From an uncultured Bacteroidota bacterium (lineage in GTDB: Bacteria; Bacteroidota; Bacteroidia; Chitinophagales; Chitinophagaceae), in NCBI GenBank assembly GCA_903853805.1, contig CAINUN010000067.1:1-64000 (forward strand): a stretch of 64,000 nt of DNA, given 5' to 3'. The notes under the pieces were generated by a model, which did no database searches, was not told where the DNA came from, and saw nothing but the letters and a program-made list of their open reading frames with translations. Within the stretch, counting starts at the first letter, position 1. The number at the start of each line of letters is the position of its first letter. Both the position numbers and the translations under genes were made by a program. Below, one piece after another: positions 119 through 62,321 of the stretch.

Positions 119-126
119 ATACAGGA

Positions 127-160
127 GTTGTGGGTCATTTTATTGTGAATGACCCACAAC
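127..160 (+). terminator. Perfect 13-bp hairpin, probable terminator of the upstream gene
   Basis: Arms 127-139 and 148-160 are exact reverse complements around an 8-base loop. The hairpin lies between the partial gene and the long T9SS gene starting at 251. There is no clean T-tract, so termination is inferred from the stem and its position. Confidence 0.6.
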
Positions 161-250
161 TTATGAAATAACTCAGCCTGACACAAGTATATAACAAATA
201 AAACCCGGAAGCCGAAAAGGGATTAGAGTAGGAACTAATACAATTCTAAA

Positions 251-3200
251 ATGAAAAAAACATTTTTAAACAAACTAAGGTATTGCTTGATGGCAATGCT
301 GATTTTATGGAATGTTGCGCAAGGGCAAAGTGGAAGTAACACATCTAACCATATACCTGATTCATTGATTGTAAGATGTAACATGGTATGTGGTACAAAT
401 TCCGATTTCATAAGATCTTTAAAAGGTAATGATAGTAGTAACACACCTAATTCGTCACAAAATGTAAATACTACTTGGCATTTAACTGATTTTCCAGTTG
501 GCACTTATTTTCAATGTGGTAAGTTTACTGTTTATTATGCTGATTTAATTCCAGGAAGCCCAGTAGGTGGATTCAACGACCCTACTATAGTTTCGGGTAC
601 ATTAACGTTAGGGGCGCAAAGAAGAAATACTCTTTGTCAGGTATTATGGGATATACAAAACATGATTGACTTTAGTTTAGTACCCAATGGAGCTATAACC
701 CTTTGTGTTGATAATTCTTACATTATTGGAACAAATGCTGCACCCAATACTGTTGATTGGTATGCAGAAGGAGGTCCTGTTTGGATTGGAAATTTATTAC
801 CAGTTTATGGTGTGGTAAATAATTATATTAAATCTGGAACTGACCCTTTTTCAATCTATACTACACCATATGATTTTCATAGTTTTCTAAAAGTAAACTT
901 TGATACATATTATAATCAAGGAACAAGTTTTGGTGATTCAATTAATTATAATAATGGTACAGGGCCAGTTGATAATTGTCAATTTGATTTATATTCTGTG
1001 ATTTACCATGAAATTTGTCATGTTCTTGGTTGGTTTTCTTTATTGGATATGACACCTGTATCACCTGTAAATGTAATAGGTGAAGCACAACCAAGCATGA
1101 TAGGAGGTATGTATTCTGCCATAGATAATTCAATTCATTTAGGTAATTTAGAATACCCAACTACTATTTTAGATAAATTAATAGTTGGTGGTGCAATAAA
1201 TACTAACACTACTTATATTAATCCAATCACTGGACTACCGATAGGCACAACAACTCAAAATAATTATTGGTTAAACGGTCAATTATTCCCTAACAATGAT
1301 CCTGTTTATTCAGGCTATGACGGTAACTCCTCTTACTTTTATAAAGACCCTGGATTATTTCTTGGACATCTTGATTACCAAATGAATAGTTATGCATTAC
1401 GACATCACATATCACCTGGTGAACGACAAGATTATGTTATGGCACCTTTTCTTTCAAAAGGTGTTGAAAGAAGATTTTTAACAAAAGGAGAATTAAGAGC
1501 ATTCATTAATATTCTTGGGTATAATCTAACTTCAACTTTCCAAAGTCTCAATAACAATTTGATAAACAACAATATTCCTGTATGTACTAAAATGGCTACA
1601 CAAGTAATAAGTTCGGCTTTTAAATCATACTTGGGTGCGTATGATGGCGCTGATTTTATGACACCTGATTATACTATTGTAAATAATAATGTTCCTTTTA
1701 CAATACCACTTACTTTTGGGCCAACTACAATTTATGATTTGGATAACGACCCAGTAACCATAATGCCGGGAACAATTGTAAACCTTAGAGGTTGTGGCGA
1801 TGGTAATGGTAATAATGCTAATCAACTTCAAATTGGAAATGGAGGAACATCTATTATTTATAATCCTAGACATAATTTCTATGGTAGGGCACAATTTGGT
1901 TTTAATCTATGGGATGGAAAAGAAAAAGGACCATTTGTTATCTATACAGTAGATGTTCAAAAAGGAACAAATGTAAGTCTCCAAGCAAATGGAAACATGG
2001 TTTTAAACCCTGGTTTTGAAGAAGGAACTGAGGTAAGAAGACTTGGTGTTGAAGAAACTAAAATTAATGGACCATTTAGAGAAGGATATTTAAAAGAAGG
2101 TAGGTTTTCTGGGGCTATTTTTTCTGATTCTCATCCTCGCGATTTTTATACTAATTCTTATGAACCGGCTGGAGGTGGAATATTTGTCAAAGATTCGTGG
2201 GCGTTGTGTGATTGGGCACAAATATTAAATGAAGAATTTGGTTTCATTGGTACAAATTTTACTTCTATTCCCAATTTTCCTTCACCCAATGGACAGAAAA
2301 GGTTTCAAAAGATATTTGATAATCGATGTGGCTACTTTTTATTAACTAACGATTTACAGACTTGTAAAAAATACAAACTTGAATTTGACTTTTATGGTTC
2401 AGCAATTGACAATAGTAGTTTTGAGGTAGGATTTTTGAATGAGAACCAAATACCAGTTGGTGATTATTTAGCATGTAGTAATCCAGTTTCCAATTTCATT
2501 GTTCCAACTGTTGTGGGAACCACAACGAATACTACCCCTGTTTCAAGTTGGCAAAAATATACCTTAACATTTGAATATTGTGCTAGTCAACAATCCTCTG
2601 TAATGTATCTCAAGGCAAAAGGAACTGGTAGTTTTCTAATCGACAATATTTCTTTAAGTGAATACACTCCTAATTTAGGGGTTTCAGTAACAGCTACACA
2701 ACCTATTCCATGCGGAAGTTATCAACTTACACCAAATGTTACAAACCTGCCAAATAGTATTTGTAATTCAAACCAATTATTGAATTATTCATGGTCACCT
2801 AATTCTGGTCTATCTTGTTATACTTGTGCCAATCCTATAGCTTCACCTACATCACCTACGACCTATTCCTTACAAATTAATAGCGGTTGCCAGACAGCTT
2901 CTTCTTCTATCTCGCTAAATCAAGTTACAGTAACAGCTAACGCTCTTCAATGCAATAACTGTAATGTTAGTGCGTTAATGACTTTGATTGGAGCACCAAG
3001 TACATCTACTTCTTTAATAACTAATGCCACCATAGTTTTCAATGGCACTTTTACTGTCGATAAAAACCTATTAATTGGTAATTGCCCGAATCTTCTGTTT
3101 GATGCTAATGCAGTTATTAAAGTAAATCCTGGTTTTACTCTTAACATTAAAACATCTACTTTAAAAAGTTTATGTAATCAAATGTGGACTGGAATTCAGA

Positions 3201-5632
3201 CAATGGCTCTAAATTCTTCAATTATAATTGATAACAGTACATTAATGGATATGATTGAAGGCGTACATACAGCTCAAGGTTCGACTCTAACAATAACTAC
3301 AACAAGTTTCATCAACAATTATCTTGGAATTTGGATTGAGAACAATCAAACAAATAGTACTATTATTCGAGAGAATATATTTACAAGTACCAGTTTAATG
3401 TCACCCAATTTGGGACAAAAAGGAAAATATGGTATAAAGCTGAATAATTGTAGTTACATTGATATTGGTAGCAATACAAGTGGCGCAAATAATTTCAGCA
3501 ATTTAAAAACAGGTATTTATATTGGATTTACCATAACTGGAACTAGTTTATGTCAGAACAATATCCATAATTGTAACTTCACCAATATTCTTGGCGGCAA
3601 TTATGGCTTGCCTGGTTTGAATGGAACTTTTCCGGTTACTGTTTACAACGACCCTGAGGGAACTGCAATCTTCGGTGAAAATAAAAGTTCAGGAAACTTA
3701 AAACTTACTGTTGATTATCCGGTACTTTCCAACAATGCCAATTTTAATCATTGCACTAAAGGCATAACAGCCTCAGGAATGAGTGTAACGGTAAATAGGG
3801 CTAATTTGTCGGATGTGGTTTGGGGTATTCATGTAAGCCAAACGGATAAATACGACTACCAAATTACCAACAACAATCTTACTATTTTCCGTTATGGCAT
3901 TGGTTTTTCTGGCAACACCCAATCTGCTTATGTGTTTAATAACGTACTCTCTTCAAGAAATTATGACCATGACTGGATGAATGGTCAACCTTTGGGGGGT
4001 ACTTATGGCATTTATGTGTACAACTTTAACCCCAACAATTTACCCAACAATAGTTTCAGAATATTGTCTAACGGTATAACTTATAATGCACCTACCGGTA
4101 ATGGCATCATCGTTGCCAACAGAGGGATAAACATTAGCAACAATACCATTACCCTTACGCACAACTTAAGCGGATGGACTAATAATAATGCCCTTTCTTT
4201 TGGATTAAACGGAATAAATATCAGCCGAGCCTTTGGTTGTAACTTATACTGCAATAGTGTAGGTGGCAATGCAGCACTTCCTTATCAGTCCGTTTACAAT
4301 CAGGCTGCCTTTGCCTTTAGCGATAGTAAAAACATGACCTTGCAATGCAACAGTGCTACCTTAACTAAGTATGGTTTTTATGCTTTAGGCGATTGCTCTA
4401 CAGGCATTGATAGGGTAAAAGCCAATACCTGCTACAAACATGTCAATGGTTGGTTGTTGCGCCACCTCACCAACCCTGGCAGTTTGGGCAATAGTATAGG
4501 CGATGCCGGCAACGAAAACAACAATGCTTTTTGGGGCATTAATTATGCTCAAGTAAATGGGATAGCAGCAAAAATTTATGTAGTTGATGTTTGCAGTGTT
4601 CCTCAGCCTTTTAAAACAATTTTTTCTGGAAATGGAACATTATTGCCAGGAGAATCTATTAGTCAAAACAACTGTTATCCTTATCAAGTTAATAGTTTAA
4701 ATTCCAATCATTCCACCTATAACTGTCCACCATCCTGTCCTATTTTGCAAAGTACTAATCCTGTAGCAAGTGCAGAGTTTATTACCAATCTTGATTTGGC
4801 TGAACAAATAGCTCAGGATAGTGTGCTGTATAGTGAGTTTCAGGAAGGTGGTGCTTGGGTTGCTGCACAAAGGTTGTATTATGCCCTCTATCATGACACA
4901 GCTATTATGAACAATAGTCAGGTGCTCGATTCCTTTTTTATGGCTACTCAAAACTCCATGATTGACCAGGTTTATGAAGCCGATGAACTCTTGGAATCCA
5001 TTAACGCCAGCTTTGCCAACGATACTGTCGCTTATCAAAACTGGTTAACCAATGCACATAACGCCAATAACAATATTGGCAACAGCGACCTTCATGCTGC
5101 CAATGAACACCTGATAAATGCCCTCTACCTGAAATGGGTAGAACATGGTGTAGATTCTCTGAACTTTGAAGATAGCATTGCTATTGCAGCACTTGCGCTG
5201 CAATGTCCCTGGATTGGCGGCGAAGCGGTTTACAAAGCCCGTATGCTTTATGGCTTGTTTGTAAGCGTTAATTATGACGACTTGGATATTTGCAATACTG
5301 CTGGCGTTTACAAAGGAGGGCATGGTTTGTTTGATGAAGAAAACAATTCCCTATCCTTGCTCTATATGCCTTCTTCGGGTGAAAAGAATATTGCTGTTTT
5401 TCCTAACCCTCATTTTGGTAAGTTTATGATTCAGTATATACTTGATCAAAATGAAAAAGGAATATTTCAAGTAGTAGATGTATATGGTAGGTTAATAACT
5501 GAAGCAACCTTGAATCCATTATTGGGAGCACAAACCATTGATATGAGTTCGAGTCCTGATGGTGTTTATTATTATCGATTCTTGATAAATGGATTGTTGA
5601 AAGGCACAGGAAAAATGTTATTGGTTCATTAA
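251..5632 (+). CDS. T9SS-sorted multidomain protein with HExxH metallopeptidase and beta-helix domains
   Basis: This is a very large (1793 residues) predicted surface or secreted protein. A signal peptide (about 1-25, ending near AQGQS) is followed by a peptidase-like region. That region carries HEICHVLGW at 253-261, the leishmanolysin-type HExxHxxGF/W pattern, and has a candidate distal third ligand at H373 (LGHLDY) before VMAPFLSKG. Next come a cadherin/Ig-like stretch (about 500-580), a CBM-like region starting NPGFEEG (about 595-850) and a PKD-like segment rich in Cys. A right-handed beta-helix-like region of N/G/I repeats (about 940-1480) precedes a helical segment (about 1500-1690). A T9SS type A sorting domain occupies about 1715-1793. 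The sorting domain is nearly the same as that of the next gene, 9 bp downstream. Peptidase activity is inferred from motif only. Base composition rises in GC after about position 3700. Confidence 0.85.
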   Translation: MKKTFLNKLRYCLMAMLILWNVAQGQSGSNTSNHIPDSLIVRCNMVCGTNSDFIRSLKGNDSSNTPNSSQNVNTTWHLTDFPVGTYFQCGKFTVYYADLIPGSPVGGFNDPTIVSGTLTLGAQRRNTLCQVLWDIQNMIDFSLVPNGAITLCVDNSYIIGTNAAPNTVDWYAEGGPVWIGNLLPVYGVVNNYIKSGTDPFSIYTTPYDFHSFLKVNFDTYYNQGTSFGDSINYNNGTGPVDNCQFDLYSVIYHEICHVLGWFSLLDMTPVSPVNVIGEAQPSMIGGMYSAIDNSIHLGNLEYPTTILDKLIVGGAINTNTTYINPITGLPIGTTTQNNYWLNGQLFPNNDPVYSGYDGNSSYFYKDPGLFLGHLDYQMNSYALRHHISPGERQDYVMAPFLSKGVERRFLTKGELRAFINILGYNLTSTFQSLNNNLINNNIPVCTKMATQVISSAFKSYLGAYDGADFMTPDYTIVNNNVPFTIPLTFGPTTIYDLDNDPVTIMPGTIVNLRGCGDGNGNNANQLQIGNGGTSIIYNPRHNFYGRAQFGFNLWDGKEKGPFVIYTVDVQKGTNVSLQANGNMVLNPGFEEGTEVRRLGVEETKINGPFREGYLKEGRFSGAIFSDSHPRDFYTNSYEPAGGGIFVKDSWALCDWAQILNEEFGFIGTNFTSIPNFPSPNGQKRFQKIFDNRCGYFLLTNDLQTCKKYKLEFDFYGSAIDNSSFEVGFLNENQIPVGDYLACSNPVSNFIVPTVVGTTTNTTPVSSWQKYTLTFEYCASQQSSVMYLKAKGTGSFLIDNISLSEYTPNLGVSVTATQPIPCGSYQLTPNVTNLPNSICNSNQLLNYSWSPNSGLSCYTCANPIASPTSPTTYSLQINSGCQTASSSISLNQVTVTANALQCNNCNVSALMTLIGAPSTSTSLITNATIVFNGTFTVDKNLLIGNCPNLLFDANAVIKVNPGFTLNIKTSTLKSLCNQMWTGIQTMALNSSIIIDNSTLMDMIEGVHTAQGSTLTITTTSFINNYLGIWIENNQTNSTIIRENIFTSTSLMSPNLGQKGKYGIKLNNCSYIDIGSNTSGANNFSNLKTGIYIGFTITGTSLCQNNIHNCNFTNILGGNYGLPGLNGTFPVTVYNDPEGTAIFGENKSSGNLKLTVDYPVLSNNANFNHCTKGITASGMSVTVNRANLSDVVWGIHVSQTDKYDYQITNNNLTIFRYGIGFSGNTQSAYVFNNVLSSRNYDHDWMNGQPLGGTYGIYVYNFNPNNLPNNSFRILSNGITYNAPTGNGIIVANRGINISNNTITLTHNLSGWTNNNALSFGLNGINISRAFGCNLYCNSVGGNAALPYQSVYNQAAFAFSDSKNMTLQCNSATLTKYGFYALGDCSTGIDRVKANTCYKHVNGWLLRHLTNPGSLGNSIGDAGNENNNAFWGINYAQVNGIAAKIYVVDVCSVPQPFKTIFSGNGTLLPGESISQNNCYPYQVNSLNSNHSTYNCPPSCPILQSTNPVASAEFITNLDLAEQIAQDSVLYSEFQEGGAWVAAQRLYYALYHDTAIMNNSQVLDSFFMATQNSMIDQVYEADELLESINASFANDTVAYQNWLTNAHNANNNIGNSDLHAANEHLINALYLKWVEHGVDSLNFEDSIAIAALALQCPWIGGEAVYKARMLYGLFVSVNYDDLDICNTAGVYKGGHGLFDEENNSLSLLYMPSSGEKNIAVFPNPHFGKFMIQYILDQNEKGIFQVVDVYGRLITEATLNPLLGAQTIDMSSSPDGVYYYRFLINGLLKGTGKMLLVH

Positions 5633-5641
5633 TAATAAACA

Positions 5642-7201
5642 ATGAAGAAGTATTTGATAATAATTATTACCCTGCTGCTGTATAGCAGCAGGGTAATTTC
5701 TCAAAATGACTATGATAAAGTATGGGTTAATGGAATTCCAATTTCTTTTAAAACTACTTTTAATGGAAATAATATTGTAAACCAATATTTCGACACTGTT
5801 AAAAATTTACAATTTAATAATGGTCATTCCAATATCTGCGATGCCAATGGCAATTTAATACTAGCCTGTACCAGTTTTGATTTGTTTAATGCTCAAGCCA
5901 ATTTGATTCAAAACGGGGATATGTTAGTCCCAGATACAATTTACCAAACTTATTCCGGTTCTATTATTGCTTCTCAGGCTTCAATAATTTTACCTGTTTC
6001 AGCATCCAAGTATTATTTAATCACCCCTACAGTAAGCGATTCGGAATATAATGCTAATTGGAATGGTTCATCAGGAAGGATCTTATTTGATTTAATGTAC
6101 TGTCATACCATTGATATGAGCGCCAACAATGGTTTAGGTGCTGTGGTACGCAAAAAACAAGTGCTGATTGAACATGTAGAATTAGGTAAAACAAGGATGA
6201 CTGCCTGTCGTCATGGAGATGGGAATAGTTGGTGGTTACTCAAACAGGGTTATGACAGCAATATTGTGTATAAATTCATCTTGACATTAGATACTATTTA
6301 TGGTCCCTATATTCAAAGATTTACACAGCCCTATTTTACCAAATTTGAGAATACCGGACAAGCAGCATTTTCAAAAGATGGTACTCAGTATGCTACATCC
6401 AATACAAAAGCACAAAAGGCATTTGTGTCCAATTTTGACCGTTGTTCCGGTAATTTATTCAATCCAAGGGTAATTGATGTTCCTAATCCTTGGAGCAATA
6501 ATCCATTTGATTCTTCTGAATTAGACATTTCAATTAGTGGTGTATCTTTTTCACCAAATGGACGTTTTTTGTATATAGTCAAGCAATGTAATATTATGCA
6601 GTTTGATTTGCAAGACACTAATCCCAATACTCAATGGAGTCTTGTAGGCGGAATTGATACTTCTTGGAATAATTTTCAGTGGTATTGTTTGTCTTATCTT
6701 GGTCCAGATGATAAGTTATACATTGGTAATTGGAATGGCTTTAGTCCCGGTATGTCAGTCATTAATAATCCTGATGTAAAGGGTATAGGATGCAATTTTT
6801 GTCCTAAATGTTTACATTTTCCAAAATATCATTTTTCTTCTACATTGATAGGTGGTGGGGTAAAAACTCCCCCTAATATGCCTAATTATAAATTAGGTGC
6901 TACTAACCCGCCCTGTGTGGTGGGGGTGCCTGAGGTGGGGCAGGGTAAGAAGGTGGAATATAGTGTTTTGCCCAATCCATCTATCAGTAAGTTTATGATA
7001 AAATACATGCTCGATGAAAATGAAAAAGGAATCTTCCAAGTAGTGGATATTTATGGTCAACTAATTACTGAAGCAACCTTAAATCCATATTTAGGTGCAC
7101 AAACTATTGATTTGAAGAACAATCCATCAGGTGTGTATTACTATAGGTTTTTTGTAAATGGTATTCAAAAAGCTACAGGTAAGATAGTCTTAACTCATTA
7201 G
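5642..7201 (+). CDS. T9SS-sorted propeller-like protein, copy 1
   Basis: This 519-residue secreted protein has a signal peptide (about 1-20). Its beta-propeller-like body contains WD40/YVTN-style blades (FSKDGTQYATSN near 240, FSPNGRFLYIVKQ near 300) and conserved Cys pairs (CNFCPKC near 385). A GC-rich linker (GVPEVGQGKK) leads into a T9SS sorting domain (about 440-519). The gene starts 9 bp after the preceding cargo gene and is followed 11 bp later by a close paralogue, so the three are probably co-transcribed. The bodies of the two paralogues are nearly identical for long stretches, but their sorting domains are unrelated: this one matches the sorting domain of the upstream 1793-residue protein. 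The substrate or function is unknown. Confidence 0.85.
   Translation: MKKYLIIIITLLLYSSRVISQNDYDKVWVNGIPISFKTTFNGNNIVNQYFDTVKNLQFNNGHSNICDANGNLILACTSFDLFNAQANLIQNGDMLVPDTIYQTYSGSIIASQASIILPVSASKYYLITPTVSDSEYNANWNGSSGRILFDLMYCHTIDMSANNGLGAVVRKKQVLIEHVELGKTRMTACRHGDGNSWWLLKQGYDSNIVYKFILTLDTIYGPYIQRFTQPYFTKFENTGQAAFSKDGTQYATSNTKAQKAFVSNFDRCSGNLFNPRVIDVPNPWSNNPFDSSELDISISGVSFSPNGRFLYIVKQCNIMQFDLQDTNPNTQWSLVGGIDTSWNNFQWYCLSYLGPDDKLYIGNWNGFSPGMSVINNPDVKGIGCNFCPKCLHFPKYHFSSTLIGGGVKTPPNMPNYKLGATNPPCVVGVPEVGQGKKVEYSVLPNPSISKFMIKYMLDENEKGIFQVVDIYGQLITEATLNPYLGAQTIDLKNNPSGVYYYRFFVNGIQKATGKIVLTH
5666..5697 (+). promoter_or_regulatory. 14-bp RNA hairpin inside signal-peptide codons, copy 1
   Basis: Arms 5666-5679 and 5684-5697 are perfect complements with a 4-base loop (GTAT). 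The hairpin starts exactly 24 bases after the A of the ATG and covers codons 9-19 of the signal peptide. The downstream paralogue has the same hairpin at the same offset with a compensatory change. A role in translation or mRNA stability is inferred. Confidence 0.6.
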
Positions 7202-7212
7202 TTTTATAACAA

Positions 7213-8751
7213 ATGAAAAAGTATTTATTAATTACCATAACCCTGCTGCTTTACAGCAGCAGGGTTATTTCCCAAAATGATTATGGGAAAGTATGGGTAA
7301 ATGGTGCCCCTATTTCTTATAAAACAATATTCAATAGTAATAATCTTATAAATCAATTTTACGATTCCATTAATACTTTCCTATTTAGTAATAGTAATTC
7401 CGATATTTGCGATGTTAATGGCAACTTGATATTAGCTTCTACAAGTTGTGATTTGTTTGATGCGAATGCTCAATTAATACAAAATGGGGACACCTTAGTA
7501 CCTTCAGTTATTTATCAAGCATATGATGGCTCAATACCATATTCACAAGCATCTATCATATTACCGGTATCAGCCACTAAATATTATTTTATCACACCCA
7601 CAGTAAGCGATTCAGAATACAATGCTAACTGGAATGGTTCATCTGGCAGGATATTATTCGATATGATGTACTGTCATACCATTGATATGAGTGCCAATAA
7701 TGGTTTAGGAGCAGTAGTACGTAAAAAGCAGGTATTGTTGGAACATGCTGAATTAGGTACAACAAGAATGACAGCCTGCCGACATGGAGATGGGAATAGT
7801 TGGTGGCTGCTAAAACAAGGATACGATAGCAATATTGTGTATAAATTTATCTTTACAAAAGATACTATTTATGGTCCATATATTCAAAGATTTGCCCAAC
7901 CTTATTTTACCAAATTCGATTATACTGGTCAGTCCTCTTTTTCAAAAGATGGTACACTATACGCCACATCAAATACAAAAGCTCAAAAGGTATTTGTTGC
8001 GAATTTTGACCGATGTAGTGGAAACTTATTCAATCCAAGAGTAATTGATGTACCTAATCCTTGGAGTAATAATCCTTTTGATTCAACTGAGTTAGATATT
8101 TTCATAAGTGGTGTTACTTTTTCTCCAAATGGTCGTTTTTTGTATATAGTGAAGCAATTTAACATTATGCAGTTTGATATACAAGACACAAACCCCAATA
8201 CCCAATGGTGCCATGTGGGCGGATTAGATACAACTTGGGCTGCTTTTCAGTATTACTGTTTAGCATACCCTGGACCTGATAATAAATTATATATTGGTAA
8301 TTGGAATGGTTTTAGTCCTGCAATGTCGGTTATTAATAATCCTGATGTAAAAGGTGCAGGCTGTAATTTTTGTCCTAAGTGTTTACGCTTTCCACATCAT
8401 CCTCCTTATACTGGTGGATATGTTACTACCCCGCCCAATATGCCAAATTATAAGCTTGGAGCTACTAACCCGCCATGTGTGGTGGGTGTGCCAGAGGTGG
8501 GGCAGGGTAAGAAGCTGGAGTTTAGTGTGTCGCCAAATCCTTTTGAACAAACCCTTATCATAAAAACTAACTTTGCTCAGCAAGAAACTTTTTACCTCTA
8601 TGATGTAATCGGTAAACTCATCCTCACCAAAACCATCGAGGCAAACAAAGAGCAAATCAATACGACTAACCTTTCAGCAGGCTTATACTTTTATAGCATC
8701 GTTAATAAAAACGGCGAGCGCTTGAAGGCAGGGAGGGTGGTGAAGGAATGA
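7213..8751 (+). CDS. T9SS-sorted propeller-like protein, copy 2
   Basis: This 512-residue paralogue of the preceding gene has the same signal peptide layout. Its body is nearly collinear (GSSGRILFDMMYCHTIDM near 150, FSPNGRFLYIVKQ near 300) and it has the same VGVPEVGQGKK linker. Its C-terminal sorting domain (about 437-512, NPFEQTLIIKT to KAGRVVKE) is of a different sequence class from that of copy 1, which points to recombination at the linker. It is the last gene of the three-gene cargo run. Downstream lies a GT-rich stretch (8752-8800) without a clear hairpin. The molecular function is unknown. Confidence 0.85.
   Translation: MKKYLLITITLLLYSSRVISQNDYGKVWVNGAPISYKTIFNSNNLINQFYDSINTFLFSNSNSDICDVNGNLILASTSCDLFDANAQLIQNGDTLVPSVIYQAYDGSIPYSQASIILPVSATKYYFITPTVSDSEYNANWNGSSGRILFDMMYCHTIDMSANNGLGAVVRKKQVLLEHAELGTTRMTACRHGDGNSWWLLKQGYDSNIVYKFIFTKDTIYGPYIQRFAQPYFTKFDYTGQSSFSKDGTLYATSNTKAQKVFVANFDRCSGNLFNPRVIDVPNPWSNNPFDSTELDIFISGVTFSPNGRFLYIVKQFNIMQFDIQDTNPNTQWCHVGGLDTTWAAFQYYCLAYPGPDNKLYIGNWNGFSPAMSVINNPDVKGAGCNFCPKCLRFPHHPPYTGGYVTTPPNMPNYKLGATNPPCVVGVPEVGQGKKLEFSVSPNPFEQTLIIKTNFAQQETFYLYDVIGKLILTKTIEANKEQINTTNLSAGLYFYSIVNKNGERLKAGRVVKE
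7237..7268 (+). promoter_or_regulatory. 14-bp RNA hairpin inside signal-peptide codons, copy 2
   Basis: Arms 7237-7250 and 7255-7268 are perfect complements around loop TTAC, again starting 24 bases after the A of the ATG. Relative to copy 1, pair T5668:A5695 has become A7239:T7266. Both changes are synonymous, so pairing and protein are kept. Confidence 0.6.
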
Positions 8752-16667: not shown

Positions 16668-16679
16668 TGCACATGAAAT

Positions 16680-16708
16680 AAAAAGCCCTTGAATATCAAG
16701 GGCTTTTT
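16680..16708. terminator. Bidirectional terminator between DUF4956 gene and tRNA-Arg
   Basis: A 13-bp perfect stem (16680-16692 with 16696-16708) has a 3-base loop, A-rich on the left and T-rich on the right. It can therefore end transcription from the plus-strand CotH/VTC cluster and from the minus-strand tRNA. Confidence 0.85.
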
Positions 16709-16718
16709 ATTTACTAAG

Positions 16719-61726: not shown

Positions 61727-61785
61727 GAATGTGTTTTAGTATCTCTAAATTAAGAATTAATTGGATTATTTTATAGAGGCTAATT

Positions 61786-61815
61786 AAAAAGAGGCGCTTT
61801 TCAGCGCCTCTTTTT
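61786..61815. terminator. Terminator after the bamA-skp-skp run
   Basis: A perfect 13-bp stem (61786-61798 with 61803-61815, loop TTTC) is flanked by A5 and T5. It is two bases from the stop of the second skp gene, so it ends the minus-strand envelope-biogenesis operon. Confidence 0.88.
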
Positions 61816-61817
61816 AA

Positions 61818-62321
61818 TTATTTTATTCCCAGTTTCGATTTTACTAAAGGAAGGATATTGTCGCTTTCTTTGGAGTATAATAAACCGCCAGAACTAGCAT
61901 CAAAAATATAATCGTAGTTGTTGGTTTTTGCAACCTCTTTGATAGCTTTATCGGCTTTTTCAAGTATAGGGGCAAACAACTCTTGTTTCTTTCCTGCTAC
62001 TTTTTCTTGAGCACTTTGATCTGTACTTTGAATACGTTCTTGTAGCTGCTGAATTTCTTTATACTTCACTTCTTTTACAGCATCAGTCATCGTTTTTTCT
62101 TGTGATTGAAAGTCTTGAACTTTTTTCTGGTAGTCTTTACTCATAGCTTCAAGCTGGTCCTGATAGCTTTTAGCATAAGCTTTTAAGCTGGAATCGGCTT
62201 TTTTAGCTTCAGGCATCAACTCAAGTAATTCTGCAGAATTGATATAGCCAAGTTTCTGTTGAGCATGTACGTAACCTGCAGAAAGAAAACCGCAGGCAAT
62301 AAGGAGAATGATTTTTTTCAT
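61818..62321 (-). CDS. OmpH/Skp-family periplasmic chaperone, copy 2
   Basis: This 167-residue exported protein has a signal peptide (about 1-20, YVHAQQ), then LGYINSAELLELMPEAKKAD. A long coiled-coil tentacle (about 40-115, KDYQKKVQDFQSQEKTMTDA) and a C-terminal strand region (YDYIFDASSGGLLYSKESDN) follow. Skp trimers hold unfolded outer-membrane proteins for delivery to BamA, whose gene precedes it. It is a tandem paralogue of the neighbour at 62388-62900. Confidence 0.92.
   Translation of the reverse strand: MKKIILLIACGFLSAGYVHAQQKLGYINSAELLELMPEAKKADSSLKAYAKSYQDQLEAMSKDYQKKVQDFQSQEKTMTDAVKEVKYKEIQQLQERIQSTDQSAQEKVAGKKQELFAPILEKADKAIKEVAKTNNYDYIFDASSGGLLYSKESDNILPLVKSKLGIK

Follow-up and report, generated by a model that had tools for sequence, protein, structure and literature searches.

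A hairpin in the signal-peptide codons of two tandem T9SS genes

The window analyzed in this work is a stretch of 64,000 nucleotides from an uncultured bacterium of the Chitinophagaceae. Near its left end lies a tandem array of T9SS genes, two of which carry a hairpin within their signal-peptide codons. The features under study are as follows:

251 to 5632, + strand: T9SS gene for a 1,793-aa protein, member of the tandem array with genes A and B, ending 9 nt before gene A
5642 to 7201, + strand: gene A, an ORF for a 519-aa secreted beta-propeller-like protein with a Sec signal peptide and a C-terminal T9SS type A sorting domain
5666 to 5697, + strand: hairpin A, ATTACCCTGCTGCT-GTAT-AGCAGCAGGGTAAT, a 14-bp stem with a 4-nt loop, -23.6 kcal/mol, inside codons 9 to 19 of gene A (ITLLLYSSRVI)
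7213 to 8751, + strand: gene B, for a 512-aa paralogue of A with a T9SS sorting domain
7237 to 7268, + strand: hairpin B, ATAACCCTGCTGCT-TTAC-AGCAGCAGGGTTAT, a 14-bp stem with a 4-nt loop, -23.4 kcal/mol

The products of genes A and B are 75% identical, and both have the two marks of T9SS type A cargo, namely, a C-terminal Por_Secre_tail and an N-terminal signal peptide, the latter assigned from sequence and ending just before a conserved Gln. For the gene A product, the Por_Secre_tail match (TIGR04183/PF18962) lies above the curated cutoff. The AlphaFold model of this protein (mean pLDDT, 69) is predicted to be beta strand for the most part, and the Foldseek list for the model is headed by propeller-type folds, with low TM-scores.

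The hairpin arms (5666 to 5679 with 5684 to 5697 in A, and 7237 to 7250 with 7255 to 7268 in B) are 100% complementary. As described in the first-pass annotation, both genes have a perfect 14-bp stem and a 4-nt loop beginning 24 nt past the A of the ATG (5642 and 7213, respectively), and one stem pair differs between the copies in a compensated manner (T5668:A5695 versus A7239:T7266) through third-position synonymous changes on both sides (ATT/ATA and GTA/GTT). The two loop changes are synonymous as well (CTG/CTT and TAT/TAC). Within the stem region, 4 of 11 codons differ between A and B: two in the loop and the two that make the compensated pair. In the gene bodies, 41% of the codons for the same amino acid differ.

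No long inverted repeat was found near the start codon of the upstream 1,793-aa T9SS gene. A perfect 14-bp inverted repeat with an 8-nt loop (AGTTGTGGGTCATT) lies upstream of that gene at window positions 126 to 161, with a sequence unrelated to those of the signal-peptide hairpins.

Further family members and a common register

The same genome encodes two more full-length paralogues, designated C55 and C10, each 43% identical to A. The C55 stem, AGTAGTGTTGCT-GGTT-AGCAACACTACT, is a perfect 12-bp stem with a 4-nt loop, and that of C10, CTGCTGCT-TATT-AGCAGCAG, is a perfect 8-bp stem, also with a 4-nt loop. A fifth stem, ATAACCGTGCTGCT-GTAC-AGCAGCACGGTTAT (14 bp, 4-nt loop), occurs in a homologue from Chitinophaga silvisoli (protein identity, 49%), which was retrieved by a profile scan of genome contigs after a single-protein scan had given no match. 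Thus, the stems of A, B, C55, C10, and C. silvisoli measure 14, 14, 12, 8, and 14 bp, all perfect, and all four full-length paralogues of this genome have one.

All five stems are centered exactly 20 nt (-20.0) ahead of the conserved mature Gln codon, and in all five, third codon positions pair with third and first with second. Because third positions pair with third, several pairs can be changed without changing the protein. The loop sequences differ among all five genes. The C55 half-site is unlike the others, with four adjacent pairs changed as a block, and C10 has a signal peptide nearly the same as that of A and B, yet its outer six pairs are gone.

Four of the five stem genes start 9 to 13 nt past the end of a preceding open frame, which is a T9SS gene for A and B and a T9SS-like remnant for C. 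silvisoli; the C10 paralogue stands alone without this layout. Given this spacing, a role for the upstream message is conceivable, with C10 as the exception. The C. silvisoli remnant is truncated and sorting-domain-like (positions 2285 to 2472 of its stretch, L176) and stops 13 nt short of the homologue, an arrangement reminiscent of the tandem genes in the window. About 40 to 70 nt upstream of the stand-alone C10 paralogue (L138), there is another strong stem, GCAAACGTCCCTTGTAGGAGACGTTTGC. The C-terminal sorting domains at window positions 5387 to 5629, 6958 to 7198, and 8500 to 8748 look swapped: the tail of gene A resembles that of the upstream 1,793-aa gene (68%), while the tails of B, C55, and C10 are near-identical to each other and different from that of A.

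Codon choice and covariation

The first-pass annotation allowed that the stems might have arisen by chance. When the codons of either gene were resampled, a stem as long as that of A or B was obtained in 0 of 1,000 cases. Given the protein and its codon usage, the probability of a stem at least as long as the gene's own in this register is 2e-5 for A, 1.5e-5 for B, 1.9e-3 for C55, 1.8e-4 for C10, and 6e-4 for C. silvisoli. If A, C55, C10, and C. silvisoli are taken as four independent deep lineages, their codon choices have a joint probability of about 1e-15; allowing for 30% of codons kept by descent raises it to 3e-10. The probability that A and B keep 14 of 14 pairs at 41% synonymous divergence is 0.017 (0.004 given exactly four changed codons). 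Moreover, a sample of 243 ORFs of this genome (299 kb of coding sequence [CDS], chosen to include the family loci) contains only four perfect stems of at least 12 bp, three of them in the hairpin gene family. On the strength of resampling, register probabilities, pair retention between A and B, the joint probability, and the sampled CDS, chance was rejected as an explanation of the stems.

The earlier count of a single compensated pair has been superseded: adding the other paralogues and C. silvisoli brings the number to six. Among the five sequences, 91% of cells are paired, both partners have changed in 6 of 14 pairs, and one-sided changes are absent. A covariation test gave a signal above both kinds of control, with the score matched in 2 of 500 shuffles and slid controls far lower, for a set of five sequences only. 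One of the changed pairs carries an amino acid replacement in each arm (L>V and R>T). No G-U pair and no one-sided G-U step occurs in the five stems.

Synonymous sites in the stem are constrained as well. Core Leu/Ser/Thr codons are the same in 5 of 6 cases, both for A versus C. silvisoli and for A versus C10, compared with 26 to 31% in the gene bodies (p of 0.01 to 0.02 each), at a divergence that has nearly saturated the other synonymous sites. Each of the five genes has G-C at its two innermost wobble-wobble pairs, at a gene GC3 of only 0.27 to 0.42. The features expected of a covarying RNA structure in an ORF, both-side pair changes above control and synonymous constraint, are therefore present.

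Conservation of a nucleic acid fold beyond that of the protein is well supported by these comparisons: in five genes from two distantly related species, the arms changed together while the proteins diverged, and it thus appears that something acts on the nucleic acid fold in addition to the protein.

Distribution and specificity

Genome-wide CDS statistics come from the sampled stretches and a whole-genome covariance-model search. With a model built from the five sequences, which its members match by construction, a search covering 20 whole genomes placed the four genes of this genome on top at 46 to 54 bits, followed by a match at 22.8 bits once opposite-strand readings of these palindromes are set aside. 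The C. silvisoli gene scores 52 bits. Lower-scoring matches in other genomes resemble terminators or hydrophobic segments. The 29 pattern matches in viral contigs and the two in other Bacteroidia have stems of 7 to 9 bp only, the Bacteroidia pair in unrelated genes.

The sampled stretches of this genome yielded 51 X-Gln signal peptides, with A and B counted as one, and stems of at least 8 bp occur only in those of the hairpin family. A general signal-peptide feature was rejected, as the other sampled X-Gln signal peptides reach at most 7 bp and homologues show no excess. In homologues from other Chitinophagaceae and Saprospiraceae, no stem enrichment was detected (in one set, 2 of 50 have p<0.05; two others gave similar results). 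These sets, with about 100 other homologues from elsewhere in the Chitinophagales, include some that are nearly as close as the stem genes. Three almost-as-close homologues (G011, G510, and G082) either miss the stem or have merely an AT-rich stem expected by chance; G011 and G510 group near C. silvisoli yet are without the hairpin.

Conservation across orthologues in many related species was thus not found, the hairpin being limited to the paralogues of this genome and C. silvisoli. Homologues without complementarity had been named beforehand as evidence against the structure, and such homologues exist in part: C10 has lost its outer six pairs, and most homologues from other genomes are stemless.

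Several known classes of element were considered and rejected. The copies in the genome are the four paralogues only, which excludes a dispersed or mobile palindromic repeat of the REP, MITE, or RPE type. The gene has no match to plasmids, arguing against a plasmid-borne gene, and the best Rfam match reaches 22.7 bits versus a gathering threshold of 43.

The gene was found in 1 of 79 Chitinophaga genomes, and this sporadic presence suggests horizontal transfer. A tree built without the signal peptide and sorting domain does not reject a grouping of the five stem genes in one clade (p-AU, 0.39), so that a single origin is possible.

Another explanation would be codon coincidence, in which runs of CTG Leu and AGC Ser codons happened to pair out of frame and the segment then spread among the paralogues and to C. 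silvisoli by conversion or horizontal transfer, making the five genes non-independent. Runs of Leu and Ser codons do seem prone to such stems: a weaker one of about 12 bp with one G-U occurs in an unrelated signal peptide (FLLLLIFSSRGFSQ, genome G666), and another weaker stem lies in a hydrophobic segment of a further gene. The sporadic occurrence of the gene and the apparently swapped C-terminal domains are also in keeping with spread of a segment. However, coincidence accounts for the 8-bp core and not for the outer ATTACC/GGTAAT pairs, and the C55 arms (AGTAGTGTTGCT), despite their different sequence, form 12 bp in the common register. In addition, when A is compared with C. silvisoli, the stem-flanking codons, few in number, show no clear excess of similarity over the gene body. 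We therefore regard this explanation as improbable. The G666 gene with the weaker stem (L321, CP058707, minus strand) encodes an unrelated secreted-type protein.

Less probable still is an element acting at the DNA level, such as a cruciform, recombination site, or operator, for example an exchange target between tandem paralogues. Strict Watson-Crick symmetry without G-U and the location in a tandem array with apparently swapped C-terminal domains would suit such an element. The half-site sequence, on the other hand, is not conserved (C55), the loops differ in all five genes, there are neither dispersed copies in the genome nor plasmid relatives, and a dimer site would do without coupled changes.

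Possible template switching and the retention of the stem

The strongest rival to selection on an RNA fold is template switching, in which DNA polymerase copies one arm onto the other, such that a repeat with a 4-bp spacer maintains itself and the hairpin has no function. In coding DNA, this process homogenizes arms, favors short spacers, inverts spacers, and gives multibase, often nonsynonymous changes (PMC8604942); switching between inverted-repeat arms has also been described for RNA genes (PMC8794818). The hairpins resemble these quasipalindrome products (PMC8604942, PMC8794818) in being perfect short-spacer repeats in coding DNA with coupled changes of the arms. No changed pair is altered on one side only or is a G-U pair, C55 differs in a block of four adjacent pairs, and in the L>V/R>T pair each of the two changes replaces an amino acid.

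The retention of the stems, by comparison, is far deeper than that of template-switch products, and one register is kept in several paralogues. Three perfect control inverted repeats of 10 to 12 bp in CDS of the same genome were lost in orthologues of the same genus (45 to 85% identical, two at 25 to 28%), which keep 1 to 8 of 10 to 12 pairs and a perfect stem of at most 6 bp; the control is imperfect, these palindromes being more AT-rich than the signal-peptide hairpin and having longer loops. Most of these orthologues are less divergent than the hairpin genes, whose stems persist at 43 to 49% protein identity. General upkeep of palindromes thus fails to account for the retention. A general process should also yield many perfect palindromes, and few are seen in the sampled CDS. 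Neither the conservation of core codons near saturation nor the G-C inner wobble pairs at a GC3 of about 0.3 are accounted for; the latter fit selection for stability and are not predicted by template switching. Overall, we consider template switching a serious candidate, though an unlikely one.

Comparison with known structures in messages

Like cis-acting RNA structures in ORFs, the hairpin has a fixed position, and it combines a conserved protein with a stem that compensatory and synonymous changes have preserved. It differs from the known cases in lying where a bacterial T9SS cargo gene encodes its signal peptide, in having five members only, and in lacking an Rfam match. Hairpins within bacterial signal-peptide codons have no described case in the literature searched.

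The GC-rich stem and 4-nt loop also recall intrinsic terminators. Unlike those, the 14-bp stems are not followed by a U-tract on the coding strand and lie within the signal-peptide part of an ORF, and the window copies were rejected as terminators on the former ground (no U-tract after the full stem, + strand). Elsewhere in the window, perfect inverted repeats of 17 to 18 bp with loops of 3 to 4 nt, at 61781 to 61820 and 16676 to 16712, are likely terminators by their appearance.

The hairpin further resembles the structure of the translation-initiation region in Bacteroidota, a phylum naturally without Shine-Dalgarno sequences, where mRNA folding close to the start codon adjusts translation (PMC6847099). 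In Flavobacterium johnsoniae, the zone of low structure extends from -20 to +20 about the start codon (PMC6847099). The five stems, in contrast, start at +21 to +31, placing the hairpins just outside the initiation zone.

A putative cis-acting mRNA hairpin

Taken as a whole, the comparisons favor, at slightly better than even chances, a structure-conserved GC-rich hairpin, selected as an mRNA fold, in the signal-peptide codons of a few T9SS-secreted, propeller-like proteins. The earlier proposal of selection on RNA structure holds as far as fold conservation is concerned (five genes, six compensated pairs, one register, and kept core codons); RNA-level and DNA-level causes are not separated by these data, as G-U pairs are absent. 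Selection on RNA is the leading, if unproven, cause of the conserved fold. Against it stand the absence of G-U pairs, some of which should be tolerated, the occurrence of the hairpin in two species only, and the loss of the outer six pairs in C10.

If the fold is selected, its core (CTGCTGCT/AGCAGCAG) probably arose by coincidence, because the Leu codons of the hydrophobic region can pair, out of frame, with the Ser codons that follow in the next region. The core would then have been lengthened and kept, with the arms coevolving in the register of third-to-third pairing under selection for a stable GC-rich mRNA fold. More tentatively, the hairpin, which is probably cis acting, may affect the message that carries it, from a position just past the -20 to +20 initiation zone, by slowing early ribosomes or by shielding the 5' part of the mRNA. 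Tuning of expression is a further candidate role. A ribosome meets the stem after about 4 to 6 codons, when the nascent chain is still deep in the exit tunnel. Pausing for Sec targeting, as first suggested, is hence unlikely, because the stem, starting at nt 21 to 31, is met before the signal peptide leaves the tunnel.

A cis-acting mRNA hairpin in the signal-peptide codons of T9SS cargo could represent an undescribed layer of control for secreted proteins of Bacteroidota, a proposal that we regard as possible rather than probable. Should the hairpin instead be a product of template switching, it would be an unusually long-lived bacterial case of mutation making textbook covariation without function, and a warning for RNA discovery by covariation. 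If the selected mRNA fold is the correct reading, the signal peptide would double as an RNA structure, in which residues change in concert (L>V with R>T) and thereby keep the pairs, and it would be a small, convenient entry point to early-ORF control in Bacteroidota, which are naturally without Shine-Dalgarno sequences.
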